Source of the DNA: Cadophora sp. MPI-SDFR-AT-0126
Lineage: Eukaryota > Ascomycota > Leotiomycetes > Helotiales > Ploettnerulaceae
Length of the DNA stretch: 64,000 nt
Direction of reading: 5' to 3'
Assembly: GCA_020747065.1 (NCBI GenBank)
Contig: JAGMVK010000024.1
Span: 310,001 to 374,000 of the forward strand
Shown here: positions 2,990-15,788 of the stretch, one piece after another
Layout of the letters: each line of letters starts with the position of its first letter
How positions within the stretch are numbered: position 1 is the stretch's first letter
The notes under the pieces: model-generated
Seen by the model: the letters and a program-made list of their open reading frames with translations, nothing else
Database searches by the model: none
Told to the model about the DNA's origin: nothing
Position numbers and translations under genes: made by a program

Positions 2990-5052
2990 CCAAATTTGGT
3001 GCGTATTTTGTCAAGTATGATGCTGTATTCCGTGACTGGTCCGGTTCGAATCCGCTCTGAAATAAGGTACTCCTTGACGGAGAAATGAGCGAGTCTTAGC
3101 TCTCCTCTTTCACCACGTCATTCTTCAACCGTGCTGGACGATACAGTGACAAGACTTGAACAGATTTCGAGTACGTCTCGTGGCTCACGAACTCTCGGTT
3201 CAACGTCAAACCTGGGTTCGTCCCCAAAGTCTACCGCGATTACTTGGGCGATTTCTTCGATCGTACGGGACGAGCAGAGTAAACTAACCACTGCAAGATT
3301 CTTATGGCAGCTGGGTAGTCACTTTTGTCAATGCTCATCAATATTCGATCGTATGTATCATCCAATGTTTCTGGCAGCGCTTTCAACACTTCCCGGAGCC
3401 CTTTTATACATCGGCACCGCCGCAGCGCATCTAATTGGCATACAACCCATCGAAACCTTAGAGCAGCCGTTAATATCTCACGTTATGAAAGCATAGGAGA
3501 CAATGGGAAATTCATACATGCCGTGTGCCCCTCTTAGTAGTGTCTCCTCGATTTCTTCTTGGATCTCCCGAGGCCATTTCAGCTTTCGGTCATGTTGAAG
3601 TCGTTCACGAATATGTCACTGCATATCGGCATTGACCAGCGTGCTCTGAATGCAAATTTGATCTGTTACTAGAGGTTTGAGAGCATCCTCGATGCCTCCC
3701 TCTGGTTGACTCGTGACGAGGATATGCAGGTTCTCAAACTTCCATCCAACCACCTTTTCAATCAGTCCTAGAAGCGCTTCCTGTTCCGTGCATTCGTCCA
3801 GGGCGTCGATGATGATGAAAGCCTGGCGGAAATACCCAACCATATGCTGAAGAGTCAACGCAAGTGCCTCGGGCATTGGCTGCTGCTAGCCTTCTTGACA
3901 GGGCGAGTAGATTGTATCCAGCGCTTCGGGGGTATTCTCAGACTGTATAGAGAGCTGCACGATCAGCGACCGTATAAGATTCTCATGATTTCGTTTTTTG
4001 ATATCGTTGAAATCAAAGTAGAAGTAGGTGATCGCGAGCGTTTGATCTGACTGGCAATGTATGAGAACATCTTGGATAACGGCAGAGCTGCAATCCTGAT
4101 CAGCAATATATACTCCAAAGTCTTAATCTGGAAGGACTTACCATAAAACGGTTTTCCCACATCCAGCTGTGGTGATCGATCAGCCTCTAGCACATCTAGG
4201 TAAGGGCCTTAGAGCGTATACTTACGAATTCCGCTCAGCCAGAGCAACGAGTTCGGACTGGATTTCCATTCCGCGAATTGGTCACCTCCAACAAACCAGG
4301 TACCTGTCGTAGGTTGTCGCTTTTTAGAGGCGGAGTTGTGGTTTGAGGATGGGTCTGGCGATGATAGCCATTGATGGATCTTTTACCGGCGCTCATCTGC
4401 AAGAAAGGTTCTCTGCCCGATCTGCAATTGCAACGCCATCACTCAATTTCGTCACATCATCTTTGATGGCTCGAGCAAGGCCACTGATTGCTGTGAGCAA
4501 GTATTAGGAAGCGGTACCTGTAATTGAGAGCTTACACATTATCTGTAGTCAACGCTAAATTGAATGTCGCTTTGTGTCTTCCTATAGTCGTAAGAAGTTT
4601 CTCAACTTCTTTGCTATTGAAAGGCCACTTTAACGCTCTGTACCCAAATTGCTTCATCTTATATTTTCCGTGCCCAGGCTCTAATTTTGCAGCCAATCCC
4701 GCCAAGTCTTTCTGGCATAGCTGTACTGGCCCATTAGGTTGATTGAGGAGGCCTAAAATTGACGGCCCAGCTGAGTTGACAGCATCAGCCAGATCTGCCA
4801 CGTCGGTCAACACATCCTGGAGGGACGTTACTTCGTCTCGAAGGCGTTGGATGTCCTTCCGCGCTTCCTTCACATCCAAGTAATACGTTCGACACTGTCA
4901 TAGCAAGACAGGGAAAAATGGAAAGGAGGGGGGACGTAGGAGCAGGTAGAGCTATGGACAAAATCTTAGCTAACAAGATTCCTAGACAGAAAGACCTGCC
5001 CCGCGATCTGAATCACGGCTATGACACTTGCAGCCGTACTGAGGCCGTCCAT
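2990..5052 (-). pseudogene. NACHT-type NLR (STAND) pseudogene
   Basis: Reading the minus strand gives fragments of a fungal NOD-like receptor in the right order but in shifting frames. ATG at 5052 starts an N-terminal segment (MDGLSTAASVIAVIQIAGQVF). A second exon, about 4895-4532, encodes the helical VKEARKDIQRLRDEVTSLQD domain. The linker WFVGGDQFAEWKSSPNSLLW and a P-loop AGCGKT (near 4170-4142) follow. Walker B is IIIDALDEC (about 3816-3790). A helical region with LPETLDDTYDRIL (about 3390-3340) is followed by LAHFSVKEYLISERIRTG (about 3090-3040). Frameshifts and stops interrupt it at several places, and no ankyrin or WD repeats remain. Family roles are heterokaryon incompatibility and immune-like recognition; this copy should be inactive. 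Confidence 0.8.
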
Positions 5053-5359: not shown

Positions 5360-5965
5360 TCATTTACAGGCGGGATAGCGGTTGCAACCTCTTTATCGGA
5401 AACTGGAGGCAGGAAAATTGGAGAAGAACCTCAATACCCCTTGTTGAATACAGAGGAGACTTGAGTGAGTAGCTTTTAGGTTTATGTACAATGCTATATG
5501 CTGACATGGCTCTTACAAGTAGCAGAAGCAGTAGCATACATCCATTCGAAGACCGTTATTCACTGCGATGTGGACTGCCATAATTTTCTTGTTTAAGACA
5601 ATAGCACTCTTGCGCTGTGCGACTTTGGCGGATCCAGTATCGGTGGCAGCAAGATTCTCGAGTTTTTTAAACCGCGATATGCCAGACCACGATCGAGGCT
5701 GGGCGAGAAACCTGACGTTAAGGATGATATATTTGCGTTGGGTACGGCTTTTTACGAATTCGGCACCGGGCAAACGCTTTACAAGGGGAAATCGGACAAA
5801 GACAGCGCTGCGTTGTTTCGCAGCCACACATACCCAGATCTACAACAGCTCTCACCACCGGGGTTAGGCAAGATTTTAGACGCTGCCGGTCGGAACGCTA
5901 TGCTGTTGCAGAGCAGGTAGTGTGTGACTTAAGTAAGGTCTTACCAGATTTGCAGGCTCAGCTCT
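5360..5965 (+). pseudogene. Protein kinase C-lobe pseudogene
   Basis: The frame after an apparent intron (GTGAGT near 5464, acceptor near 5519) reads VAEAVAYIHSKTVIHCD, the catalytic-loop region. A stop (TAA) follows, then LALCDFGG (DFG motif), then an activation segment and FALGTAFYEFGTG (alpha-F region). After about 5888 the frame shifts and SERYAVAEQVVCDL, the alpha-I end, continues. The HRD-type motif is altered to HCDVDCHNF; fungal relatives commonly read HCD. Upstream, 5360-5463 can be read as a short preceding exon. The stop and shift make it a relic of a small fungal kinase-like gene. Confidence 0.6.
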
Positions 5966-6459: not shown

Positions 6460-7211
6460 GATTTTTTTAAGCGCTACAGAGGATGTCAGGCGCCATTGAG
6501 CGAGCCGTCGAAGGGTACGAACCGCTACTTTTACATTTCAGCATGGCATGATGGCTTCCCGACTCCCCGACACTACATTGACATGGTATGGAGATTATCT
6601 GTCACCTCTGAGAGGCTGTTGGTGCTGCGGAATAGTCTCCGATACGTGTTTGTTACTGGAGCTGGTTCTCGAGTCCGACATCGAGATGCGAAGGATGTTC
6701 CACCCCGGCGATGAAGCGCTTGAATCAAGATACGGAGAACACCATGGGTTTGGTGAGCACAAGCCACGTCAGCGCCCGTCGAAGGCGTCTTATCTTCATC
6801 ACTGGTCAAGGGAACCGCAAGAGCATCTCACGACCGTCATGGCACCCTTCTTCCACTGTAGAGCGGCAAGTGTCTTCCTTCACTGTTCATAAATCGCGTA
6901 CACCATCAGCTCCTTCTTGGGGTCACTTCAATTGATAGAAGTTAAGAATTATTTGCGAAGGAGTACTAGCAATCGGACGAACAGGAGCATTCTGCAGCAA
7001 AGGTTTCTAAAGAAGCACGGAATCAAACATTTACCAGTTATCACAACATTGAATCACTGCATTGAAAATTCAATTTAAAGAAGCCTTTGCATTTGCATCA
7101 AGATGTAGGGAAACCTAGTAGGAACTTAAAACCTGCACCAAGGCTTACAATGTCCCTCACAACAGCCTGGACAGAATCCTTATACCATATATGGATCACT
7201 TCGAGTCGTCT
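6460..7211. other. Unassigned spacer
   Basis: Short overlapping frames exist on both strands, but none has a recognisable domain, splice pattern or conserved motif. The last few hundred bases are the 3' flank of the KEP gene. Confidence 0.4.
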
Positions 7212-8006
7212 TCACGAAGTGGTGTCAACAACTTTTGATCCAAACCCTACGTCGTCAATCAATATTAGCAATCAAACCATAATATTAATTGTTCGTTTCC
7301 AAGTTTGTAAAAACAGAAATCTTACCATGCTCGGCTCTCTTGCTGGATGCATCAACCACTTTTGATCCGAACCCTATTTTTCCAACGAGTATCAGCGGTG
7401 ACTCGAAAGGATTAAATGCCACGGCGTATTATGGGTCAAGATTTTACCATGCTCAGCTCTTTTGCTGGATGGGTCCACTACTTTTGACCCAAATCCTGTT
7501 GTGGCAATAAATGTTAGTACTTGACCCATACGTTCAACTATTTCTCAATGTCTGAGTGTTTAGAATGAGATCTTACCATGCTCGGCTCTCTTGCTGGATG
7601 CGTCAACTACCTTCGATCCAAATCCTATTCCGCGAACGCACATTAGTAATCGACATGTTTACAGTACATAGAACAAGATCGTACCATGCTCGGCCCTTTT
7701 CTTGGCTATCTCAACAGGTTCAACAACTTTTGACCCAAAGCCTGTTCGCCAACAATTATCAGCAGTCAAGTAATATAATAAACTGCTCCGAAGTTTTCGC
7801 AAAAATGTATCTTACCATGCTCAGCTATTGCAGCAGGGAGAGTTAGCAAATGCTTAATCGGATGTACTGGTTCTCATCATGAAGAGGGAACACTTACCTC
7901 TTTTATCCAAGAGTAAGTCAGCGGCGCTTATCACATTGTGAGGGGCAGCAAAACTGATGGCTGCAAAAAGAAGAGCCGCTGTAGAGATCAAGGAAGAGAA
8001 CTTCAT
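7212..8006 (-). CDS. Kex2-processed repeat peptide (KEP/RiPP-type) precursor, 7 exons
   Basis: Exons (minus): 8006-7898, 7824-7816, 7741-7685, 7624-7577, 7495-7448, 7373-7326, 7246-7212. The sum is 354 nt, encoding 117 aa. All six introns are GT-AG, 60-81 nt, phase 1. Residues 1-20 form a signal peptide (MKFSSLISTAALLFAAISFA). The leader ends in LLLDKR, followed by five tandem peptides each separated by a Lys-Arg Kex2 site: AEHGFGSKVVEPVEIAKKR, AEHGFGSKVVDASSKR, AEHGFGSKVVDPSSKR, AEHGFGSKVVDASSKR, AEHGFGSKVVDTTS. Each internal repeat is one exon. The layout matches fungal KEP precursors, which give secreted signals or cyclic dikaritin-type peptides. Secretion and Kex2 cleavage are inferred from motifs; cyclisation is inferred only from the UstYa-like neighbour. 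An alpha-pheromone-like precursor is the main alternative. Confidence 0.85.
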
Positions 8007-8093
8007 GTTGATGTGGAGGTGATGTTGGTTTGTAGATTGAAGTGTCTAATTGCGTTGATTTCGATTTGTGGTTGACTTTGAGGGGATTTGAGG

Positions 8094-8099
8094 TATATA
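8094..8099 (-). promoter_or_regulatory. TATA box of the KEP precursor gene
   Basis: TATATA on the minus strand lies 88 nt upstream of the ATG at 8006. The leader between them is pyrimidine/CA-rich, as is common before well-expressed fungal genes. Confidence 0.5.
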
Positions 8100-8106
8100 A
8101 GTTATT

Positions 8107-9402
8107 ATCCAATATAGGAATTTACTCCAGCCTTTGCTTCTCTCTAATGGACGAAGTGAAGGGATCAGTTTTGCTGACATGATGCTCGTGTTCCAAACCA
8201 ATCTATTCCTTGTTTCTCATATTTCAAATTACTTGGTCAGGGGTTGCAATGATAACCAAGGTTTGTTCTGTAGATCGGCCGATCGTTTTGTGCAATCTTG
8301 CCATGATTCGGATTCAATTTGATGTCTCTCGCTGCAGATACAAGGAGAAGCTACGCCGCGTCTGCATTCCTTTGTCAGATCAAATCTGCCGAGACCAGTA
8401 AAACGCTTCAGCTCGGGACCATAAACGTAGAGTAAGGCAAAGCTTACACTGGTCTAACCCAGTTTCAACTACCGGCCCGTTTCTTCCTACTTGATGCCTG
8501 GGCATCTACCTTTGCATCCAGACGAAAGGGGTTGAATGGCCCATTTACACGTGTAAGCACAGGATTTGGGAGTCATGAACCGTGGCTAATATCTTTTGCA
8601 GATCGAAAGATCCCGGTTAATGTCAAATCTGGAAGCAAGCTGAATGCCAACGCACTGAGTTTAAAGAAGCTGTGTGGTACTTAACACAGGCGTAATGCAA
8701 CTACAGCTTGCTAAACCTTACGCTTACTTGTCAGCGTAGCACAGTGCATTCCAATTATTCTCTTAGTGGAGCTGAAGATCCGCTCCGTGAACTAAATACG
8801 AGGCTTGCAGACGCTAGGGTTAATGTTATTTTCAACCCCCAATAGGTTCGGAGTCCCTTCATAGGGCTAAGAACCTGTCGTACTTAGGGTCCACAAACTA
8901 AGGTGTATTACACGCTGATCTTAGGTGCCTTAGCGACAACTGCAGTTGGCCGGGACCGGAACCAACCACAGAGCTTGTACCGTATCTATGTACAACAGTA
9001 GACATATCCCCGCTTCGCGTGACTTAACCTCGTATGTCCCTCCCAGGCCGCCCCCCACGGTACGATTATACACATTTTTTTCAGACATTTTTTTTTCATG
9101 CGTTTCTCACTTCTCAAACTCCTTGCCCCTCCCTGCCTTTACTGACTTATCCCATATCCCCGTTCTGCAAAGTAAATAACGGCCTAGGAAGAGGAATTAA
9201 ATACTTCCTGACTCACGTTCTTATATGTTCTTTTTATCCTAGACACTTTTCCTCCCTGAGCAACATCATGAAAACATCTGAGAAAATCAGCGGTTGGAGC
9301 GAGGAACTTGACATGTCTCGCGGTTCATCTACTAGGTGAGTTATGCATCTTATATCTGCAGTTCACAGCTAAATATTTGTCTTAAGCGCTCTACAGAACA
9401 TC
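8107..9402. promoter_or_regulatory. Divergent intergenic region between KEP and UstYa-like genes
   Basis: About 1.3 kb without a convincing gene. Near 9265 an ATG opens a short frame ending at a plausible donor (GTGAGT near 9337), with an acceptor (CTACAG) just before 9395. Splicing these does not keep the UstYa-like frame, so it is more likely a 5' leader intron with a short upstream frame than an extra coding exon. Confidence 0.4.

Positions 9403-15663: not shown

Positions 15664-15788
<125 letters not shown>

Follow-up and report, generated by a model that had tools for sequence, protein, structure and literature searches.

Dikaritins such as ustiloxin, phomopsin, asperipin-2a and victorin derive from a secreted multi-core precursor with Kex2-type sites, encoded next to a membrane protein that bears HxxHC(x)nHxxHC. 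In ustiloxins, phomopsins and asperipin, cross-linking takes place at Tyr; in Venturia, the Cin genes are built of repeats with introns. As given in the accessible parts of PMC12435403, PMC12048977 and PMC9233826, HxxHC(x)nHxxHC is the motif of DUF3328/UstYa proteins, and CctR is a binuclear-copper DUF3328 enzyme, with two coppers reported to sit in its twin motif (PMC12435403). GigA, the epichloecyclin precursor of Epichloe, is a repeat precursor with cyclic products and is likely processed by Kex2 (PMC9233826, accessible parts). The putative dikaritin precursors of Venturia inaequalis, including Cin3, were found through neighbouring DUF3328 genes (PMC9632046, accessible parts). A KEP survey and a lichen RiPP study, to the extent that their texts are accessible, likewise flag candidates by predicted proteins and DUF3328/HxxHC genes (PMC7329392, PMC12048977).

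Here we describe a pair of divergent genes in a 64,000-nucleotide stretch of Cadophora sp. MPI-SDFR-AT-0126 (the window). We read them, with a probability of roughly 0.6, as a two-gene, dikaritin-like RiPP pathway made of a multi-core precursor and a twin-HxxHC membrane protein. Like dikaritin loci, the pair combines a secreted-type multi-core precursor carrying Kex2-type sites with an adjacent membrane protein of the HxxHC(x)nHxxHC kind. In contrast to them, the neighbour falls outside PF11807 by HMM, no tyrosinase, methyltransferase or peptidase was recognised among the ORFs scanned, the core has Phe and His and no Tyr, and an intron lies inside every core. The precursor shares with GigA the character of a likely Kex2-processed repeat precursor from a plant endophyte, whereas core and products are unrelated. 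It also resembles the secreted tandem-repeat precursors of V. inaequalis, but those are defined by DUF3328.

Exon-intron anatomy of the precursor gene

The precursor is encoded on the minus strand (8006..7212), in pieces that lie in shifting frames across 7212-8006. Joining its seven exons in silico (109, 9, 57, 48, 48, 48 and 35 nt, 5' to 3') yields a CDS of 354 nt and a product of 117 aa, composed in order of MKFSSLISTAALLFAAISFAAPHNVISAADLLLDKR, AEHGFGSKVVEPVEIAKKR, AEHGFGSKVVDASSKR, AEHGFGSKVVDPSSKR, AEHGFGSKVVDASSKR and AEHGFGSKVVDTTS. The layout announced by the original prediction, a signal peptide, a KR-ending leader and five AEHGFGSKVV peptides spaced by Lys-Arg, becomes visible on joining the exons: a signal-like N-terminus is followed by a leader ending in DKR and by five cores with Lys-Arg between them. 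By inspection, the N-terminus is hydrophobic, ends in SFA|AP and is common to P0001, the metagenome relative described below. KR terminates the leader and units 1-4, and the tails after the invariant core read DASS, DPSS, DTTS or EPVEIA.

Exon 1 (7898..8006) encodes the signal-like N-terminus MKFSSLISTAALLFAAISFA and the leader APHNVISAADLLLDKR, the latter kept in P0001. Intron 1 (7825..7897, 73 nt, with CTAAC 18 nt from its end) leads to micro-exon 2 (7816..7824), whose 9 nt (CTGAGCATG) supply the AEH of core 1. Past intron 2 (7742..7815, 74 nt, CTGAT 17 nt from the end), the 57-nt exon 3 (7685..7741) carries GFGSKVVEPVEIAKKR and the AEH of core 2. Three exons of 48 nt follow: exon 4 (7577..7624; GFGSKVVDASSKR and the AEH of core 3), exon 5 (7448..7495; GFGSKVVDPSSKR and the AEH of core 4) and exon 6 (7326..7373; GFGSKVVDASSKR and the AEH of core 5). 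They are preceded, respectively, by intron 3 (7625..7684, 60 nt, CTAAT), intron 4 (7496..7576, 81 nt, CTAAC) and intron 5 (7374..7447, 74 nt, CTGAT), while intron 6 (7247..7325, 79 nt, CTAAT) separates exon 6 from the 35-nt exon 7 (7212..7246), which encodes GFGSKVVDTTS and the stop; in introns 3-6 the branch-point motif stands 18 nt from the end.

All six predicted introns are GT-AG and phase 1, and the exon sizes (48 nt for exons 4-6, 57 nt for exon 3) are those originally given for the internal and the first repeats. The claim that every repeat boundary carries an intron stood for intron 1 only. This is the sole intron at a Lys-Arg boundary, placed just after the leader KR, where it splits an Ala codon; introns 2-6 instead split the Gly codon after AEH (His|Gly) and cut inside each core, and exon and peptide boundaries are offset by three residues. 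The locus is confirmed as a one-exon-per-copy peptide precursor gene with predicted splicing.

An internal exon whose two ends have equal phases preserves the reading frame when it is skipped or duplicated. Exons 2-6 are phase 1 at both ends, so that skipping any of them alters the cores and leaves the frame intact; loss of the 9-nt exon 2 leaves the first core without AEH. The precursor could be real and its micro-exon unused; introns 1 and 2 would then be a single intron of 156 nt, and GFGSKVVEPVEIA, without AEH, would come first among the peptides. Exons of 9 nt are uncommon and the frame survives the skip, yet these 9 nt give exactly the AEH that all four remaining cores have, both of their flanks are furnished with splice signals and a branch point, and in P0001 VEH directly follows the leader KR. 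We regard an unused micro-exon as improbable.

Synonymous divergence of the cores and probable multiplication of the repeats

A CTRAY branch point is present in every one of the six introns, its A standing 17-18 nt before the 3' end; for all six introns to have at least one CTRAY site 10-40 nt from their ends after shuffling, the chance is about 7e-6. To relate the five cores, at least 10 nucleotide substitutions must be assumed. Every one of them (10/10) falls on a third position and is synonymous, for which the probability by chance, varying with transition bias, is 8e-7 to 4e-6. A word scan for 6-aa words present three times within 2.5 kb returned nothing in the window outside 6900-8100.

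These numbers bear on the idea that the region is a decayed tandem or non-coding repeat with accidentally open exons. It would suit the setting, as the locus occupies about 10 kb (2-12 kb) with a GC content of 46-48%, flanked on the left by an AT-rich block at 1-2 kb (24% GC) and on the right by another at 12-24 kb (20-39% GC), a weak protein-kinase remnant-like stretch lies nearby (5597-5920, plus strand; 17.7 bits, below the cut-off), and no database protein was found for the precursor itself. Such decay is, however, very improbable in the face of complete splice signals in 6/6 introns, a leader kept in P0001 and core divergence that is synonymous throughout. The precursor is therefore not the decayed repeat that the original prediction had named as its counter-case (P about 1e-6), and we rejected this reading on the synonymous-only change together with the intact splice signals.

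In their interiors, introns 2-6 resemble one another more than their dinucleotide shuffles do (sum -32.5 against -68.4, SD 9.3; 0/300 shuffles reach this value), and likewise in the 14 nt before AG (54 matches against 35.7, SD 5.2; 4/2000). A similar interior excess appears when intron 1, for which no copy is expected, is added (-55.0 against -102.0, SD 11.8), and shared positional composition may account for part of the likeness. Because the excess persists with intron 1, we infer rather than demonstrate a duplication of exon-intron units: the cores probably became more numerous through copying of the exon-intron unit.

Relatives of the precursor

In a set of 5.8 billion proteins, searched among those 0.55-1.75 times the query length at E up to 10, the precursor has one partial relative, P0001 (E=2.6e-9), an 81-aa metagenome prediction from a 1,940-bp contig. 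Shared between the two are the leader (APHNILSAKDMLLGKR) and KRAEHGF. Read from this 81-aa prediction, its 'EIGF' would suit an ATAG|G acceptor, and the start of that stretch is unsuited to a G|GT donor. There is no second precursor copy in the genome, the match on contig C4 (E=0.38) not being significant, and the exon-1 read-through used as a database query found no relative. By term search, the core words are absent from the main texts of two KEP surveys (PMC7329392, PMC6339444). These searches, with P0001 as their only find, are in keeping with the original suggestion that the core may be undescribed.

Ascomycete alpha pheromones have Cys/Trp and Pro-Gly-Gln features, and their repeats follow an X-Ala/X-Pro Ste13-type spacer rule at the start of the core. 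A diverged alpha-type mating pheromone precursor would be laid out in the same way, from signal peptide through leader to repeats spaced by KR, but the core AEHGFGSKVV contains no W, C, P or Q and starts without such a spacer. We rejected this candidate on its core chemistry and rate it the least probable of all the readings weighed here. Moreover, DUF3328 neighbours are missing from almost all pheromone-type KEP genes (PMC7329392, accessible parts).

The divergent twin-HxxHC neighbour

The neighbour, P0002 (9268..10035, plus strand; 238 aa; two exons around an intron at 9336-9386), is divergent from the precursor and 100% identical to the hypothetical protein BKA64DRAFT_631966 of Cadophora sp. 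MPI-SDFR-AT-0126. The 1,261 bp between the two divergent start codons (8007..9267) are a possible common promoter. Two HxxHC motifs, at 173-177 and 203-207 (HHVLHC, HTGHC), lie 25 residues apart. A protein-database search returned eight proteins including P0002 itself; in an alignment of 10 rows (the neighbour, three close relatives and six paralogues), both motifs are invariant in 10/10, as is a Cys-Gly ... Gly-Cys ... Asp ... Trp ... Pro ... Cys block ahead of them. The spacing between the motifs is 25-30 residues in the neighbour family and 25-43 in UstYa, where 6/7 rows keep both.

The model of P0002 has a mean pLDDT of 73, with block means of at least 90 over residues 101-210, and predicts a membrane-anchored fold: a TM helix (54-84) precedes one strand and two consecutive helices, and each of these two helices has an HxxHC close to its beginning. 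The elements follow in this order also in the model, itself weak (mean pLDDT 53), of a UstYa protein encoded in the genome. As modelled, P0002 would share with CctR and the DUF3328 copper enzymes one TM helix, a lumenal helical domain and twin HxxHC on paired helices; unlike them, it belongs to a different sequence family with its own invariant Cys-Gly...Cys block, and the profile match is marginal.

PF11807 has no match in the main exon of P0002 at E up to 1, nor is one on the same contig (C17) among the matches listed from the genome scan (E up to 0.01). Against Pfam, the main exon gave nothing significant, with one DUF4400 match at E=0.23. Aligned by hhalign, the neighbour family and UstYa match weakly (probability 4.8%, E=0.0082), over a stretch that spans both motifs. 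In the PDB, the neighbour family and UstYa each have one insignificant match by sequence, and the neighbour has 0 matches by fold at E up to 0.001, so that the putative copper site draws on no solved structure. As motif and model layout match but the UstYa profile comparison is marginal, we liken P0002 to DUF3328 enzymes and do not class it as one. It likely acts like such an enzyme without being filed as one; by analogy, it may bind copper, and we propose it as a candidate RiPP-modifying copper oxidase.

Neighbour family, UstYa genes and repeat precursors in the genome

Elsewhere in the genome, 13 paralogues of the neighbour are spread over 8 places, counted from 17 rows of which two are the neighbour gene itself and three, on contig C13, were taken as one gene. 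At E up to 0.01, the genome-wide scan with PF11807 gave at least 52 matches. A PF11807 match lies within 10 kb at 3/9 neighbour-family places (C7, C8, C36), a co-location with a binomial P of 1.1e-4 to 1.7e-4 if 30-35 UstYa sites are assumed in the genome. Repeat precursors are found within about 2.5 kb at 4/9 places, window included, and none was found at the other five.

The precursors were sought as 6-aa words repeated three times in 23 stretches totalling 283 kb. Six of them were positive: the window, C8, C36 and C12:456k, which are neighbour-family places, and C6 and C34, which are UstYa places. No repeat words occurred in the other 11 of the 16 target stretches (window not counted), nor in any of six controls (two to the left of the window, plus the four stretches that came first among 40 drawn at random from 12 contigs). 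Counted by stretch and with this small control set, the difference between 5/16 targets and 0/6 controls is not significant (Fisher P=0.27).

One exon per repeat recurs in 2/5 of the other precursors, both unrelated to the window gene. The C6 precursor (L038:6543-7257, plus strand, about 310.5 kb) adjoins a PF11807 gene and has 27-aa KK-containing repeats (NHPPGKKVEAPTEQLEKKGVAEVWANW) on exons of 81, 78 and 84 nt, separated by introns of 50-54 nt in phase 2, among which one is GC-AG; in its four repeat introns the branch point lies 12-13 nt from the end. The C8 precursor (L030:5592-6030, plus strand, about 1,279.6 kb), separated from a neighbour-family gene by under 1 kb, is signal-like; its three repeats of 26 aa (SEEGIVARDPQGGQRGGKGYGGQYIR) each occupy an exon of their own, and its two introns are phase 1 and 65 nt long. 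Both thus resemble the window gene in having an exon per repeat and a constant phase beside UstYa or neighbour-family genes, while their repeats are unrelated to its own (27 aa, KK-containing, phase 2, and 26 aa, no dibasic site, phase 1). Since the repeats differ, and in one case also the phase, the one-exon-per-repeat form probably arose more than once.

In the C36, C12 and C34 precursors, the repeats lie within one exon. The C36 precursor (L031:8016-8458, minus strand, about 2,637 kb; SGEGVVVADKEKYDRR repeats) adjoins PF11807 and neighbour-family genes and presumably contains an intron, because its signal peptide and repeats are in different frames. At the C12 place (L036:1942-7124, about 451-457 kb), a tyrosinase (PF00264, E=3.8e-19), a neighbour-family gene and AEDAEAIPFYK(K)R repeats stand together in what appears to be a dikaritin-like cluster; no PF11807 is found there among the scan matches listed (E up to 0.01), and the signal-peptide exon of its precursor was not located. 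At C34 (L040:2520-2884, minus strand, about 2,908 kb), a signal-like protein with three AENLYFRGYKIIKE(R) repeats adjoins a PF11807 gene; its repeat words, like those of C8, include no dibasic site. Separately, contig C20 holds a dense UstYa cluster of eleven PF11807 match rows in about 9 kb (135.7-144.5 kb; L014-L015), where the word scan found no repeat precursor.

Surroundings of the gene pair

The right AT-rich block contains a (TAA)41 array at 15666-15788, and a DDE transposase ORF lies to the right of this block. To the left of the precursor, fragments at 3240-4900 (minus strand) resemble a NACHT (NPHP3_N)/PigL_N receptor-like protein, and a HET-domain ORF and a CorA-like ORF occur farther left (L013). 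A plant-cell-wall-degrading group occupies 27-49 kb of the window, with tannase/feruloyl esterase, GH3, GH43, carboxylesterase and rhamnosidase-like genes; among these CAZyme genes, an MFS ORF at 33.9-34.6 kb is about 24 kb to the right of the gene pair. Besides the neighbour, 29 ORFs (9 + 10 + 10, part of those in the region) were scanned with Pfam: none is a tyrosinase, methyltransferase or peptidase, genes with short exons being liable to escape such a scan, and the only transporter-type matches are the CorA-like ORF and the distant MFS.

Discussion

A precursor of the KEP type, as originally claimed, is supported by the signal-like N-terminus (by inspection), the dibasic-spaced repeats and the one match to a Kex2-type P-domain in the genome (E=4.7e-15). 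The further claim that it is RiPP-type becomes the likelier reading because the divergent neighbour carries two HxxHC motifs, the modification itself remaining conjectural. Counted against it are a neighbour with no PF11807 match, the marginal hhalign result, a core without Tyr and no tailoring ORF among the 29.

The main rival is an unmodified KEP, from which Kex2 would release linear AEHGFGSKVVDxSS as a secreted signal or surface peptide, the neighbour belonging elsewhere. Taken by itself, the precursor would qualify as a KEP; its core lacks Tyr, and besides the neighbour no clear tailoring gene is seen in the ORFs scanned. In the accessible parts of PMC7329392, moreover, DUF3328 genes adjoin only 22% of KEP genes. 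Against this stand the divergent arrangement of the neighbour, with 1.26 kb between the start codons, and the recurrence of its family at other genomic places near precursors and UstYa genes. We hold an unmodified product to be unlikely, if less so than any other alternative.

We now propose a pathway for the dikaritin-like reading. The precursor transcript would be spliced and its product secreted; Kex2 would cut after KR, giving peptides of about 14 residues, and Kex1 would then trim KR. In the Golgi lumen, the twin-HxxHC neighbour would likely oxidise the freed or still-linked cores, perhaps by a -2 Da cross-link via His3, Phe5 or Lys8 of the invariant core; a Phe-based cross-link has precedent in victorin (PMC9233826, accessible parts). 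The variable tail (DASS, DPSS, DTTS, EPVEIA) would probably act as a spacer or be trimmed off. The computed monoisotopic [M+2H]2+ values of the linear peptides are 695.8335 (AEHGFGSKVVDASS), 708.8413 (AEHGFGSKVVDPSS), 717.8466 (AEHGFGSKVVDTTS) and 834.9332 (AEHGFGSKVVEPVEIA); one cross-link (-2.0157 Da) shifts them to 694.8257, 707.8335, 716.8388 and 833.9254 in the same order.

Intron and exon terms are absent from the main texts of the KEP surveys PMC7329392 and PMC6339444. In the accessible open-licence literature, which gives no proof of absence, we found no report of an exon-per-repeat arrangement in KEP or ustiloxin-type precursors, nor a description of it in work on lichen RiPPs, Agaricomycete KEPs, Venturia, Trichoderma, Epichloe or the chemical ecology of fungal RiPPs. 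Tentatively, and as a reading that we favour less than its opposite, the locus may belong to a hidden fungal RiPP branch in which twin-HxxHC copper oxidases beyond the DUF3328 model are paired with precursors that have one core per symmetric micro-exon.

Mining by the DUF3328 model would miss this locus, as its likely enzyme is unmatched by PF11807, the exons of its precursor are mostly 9-57 nt long and no database protein was found for the precursor. Many fungal clusters may go uncounted should the neighbour family prove to be a second group of RiPP oxidases. The exon-per-repeat form in three unrelated precursors of one genome makes both the way in which repeats multiply and a possible splice-tuned core number directly testable; the cell may make use of exon skipping or duplication in these precursors. 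Should the hidden branch be real, gene callers would miss such precursors and RiPP-mining rules such enzymes, and duplication and splicing would vary the number and the mix of cores with the frame kept.
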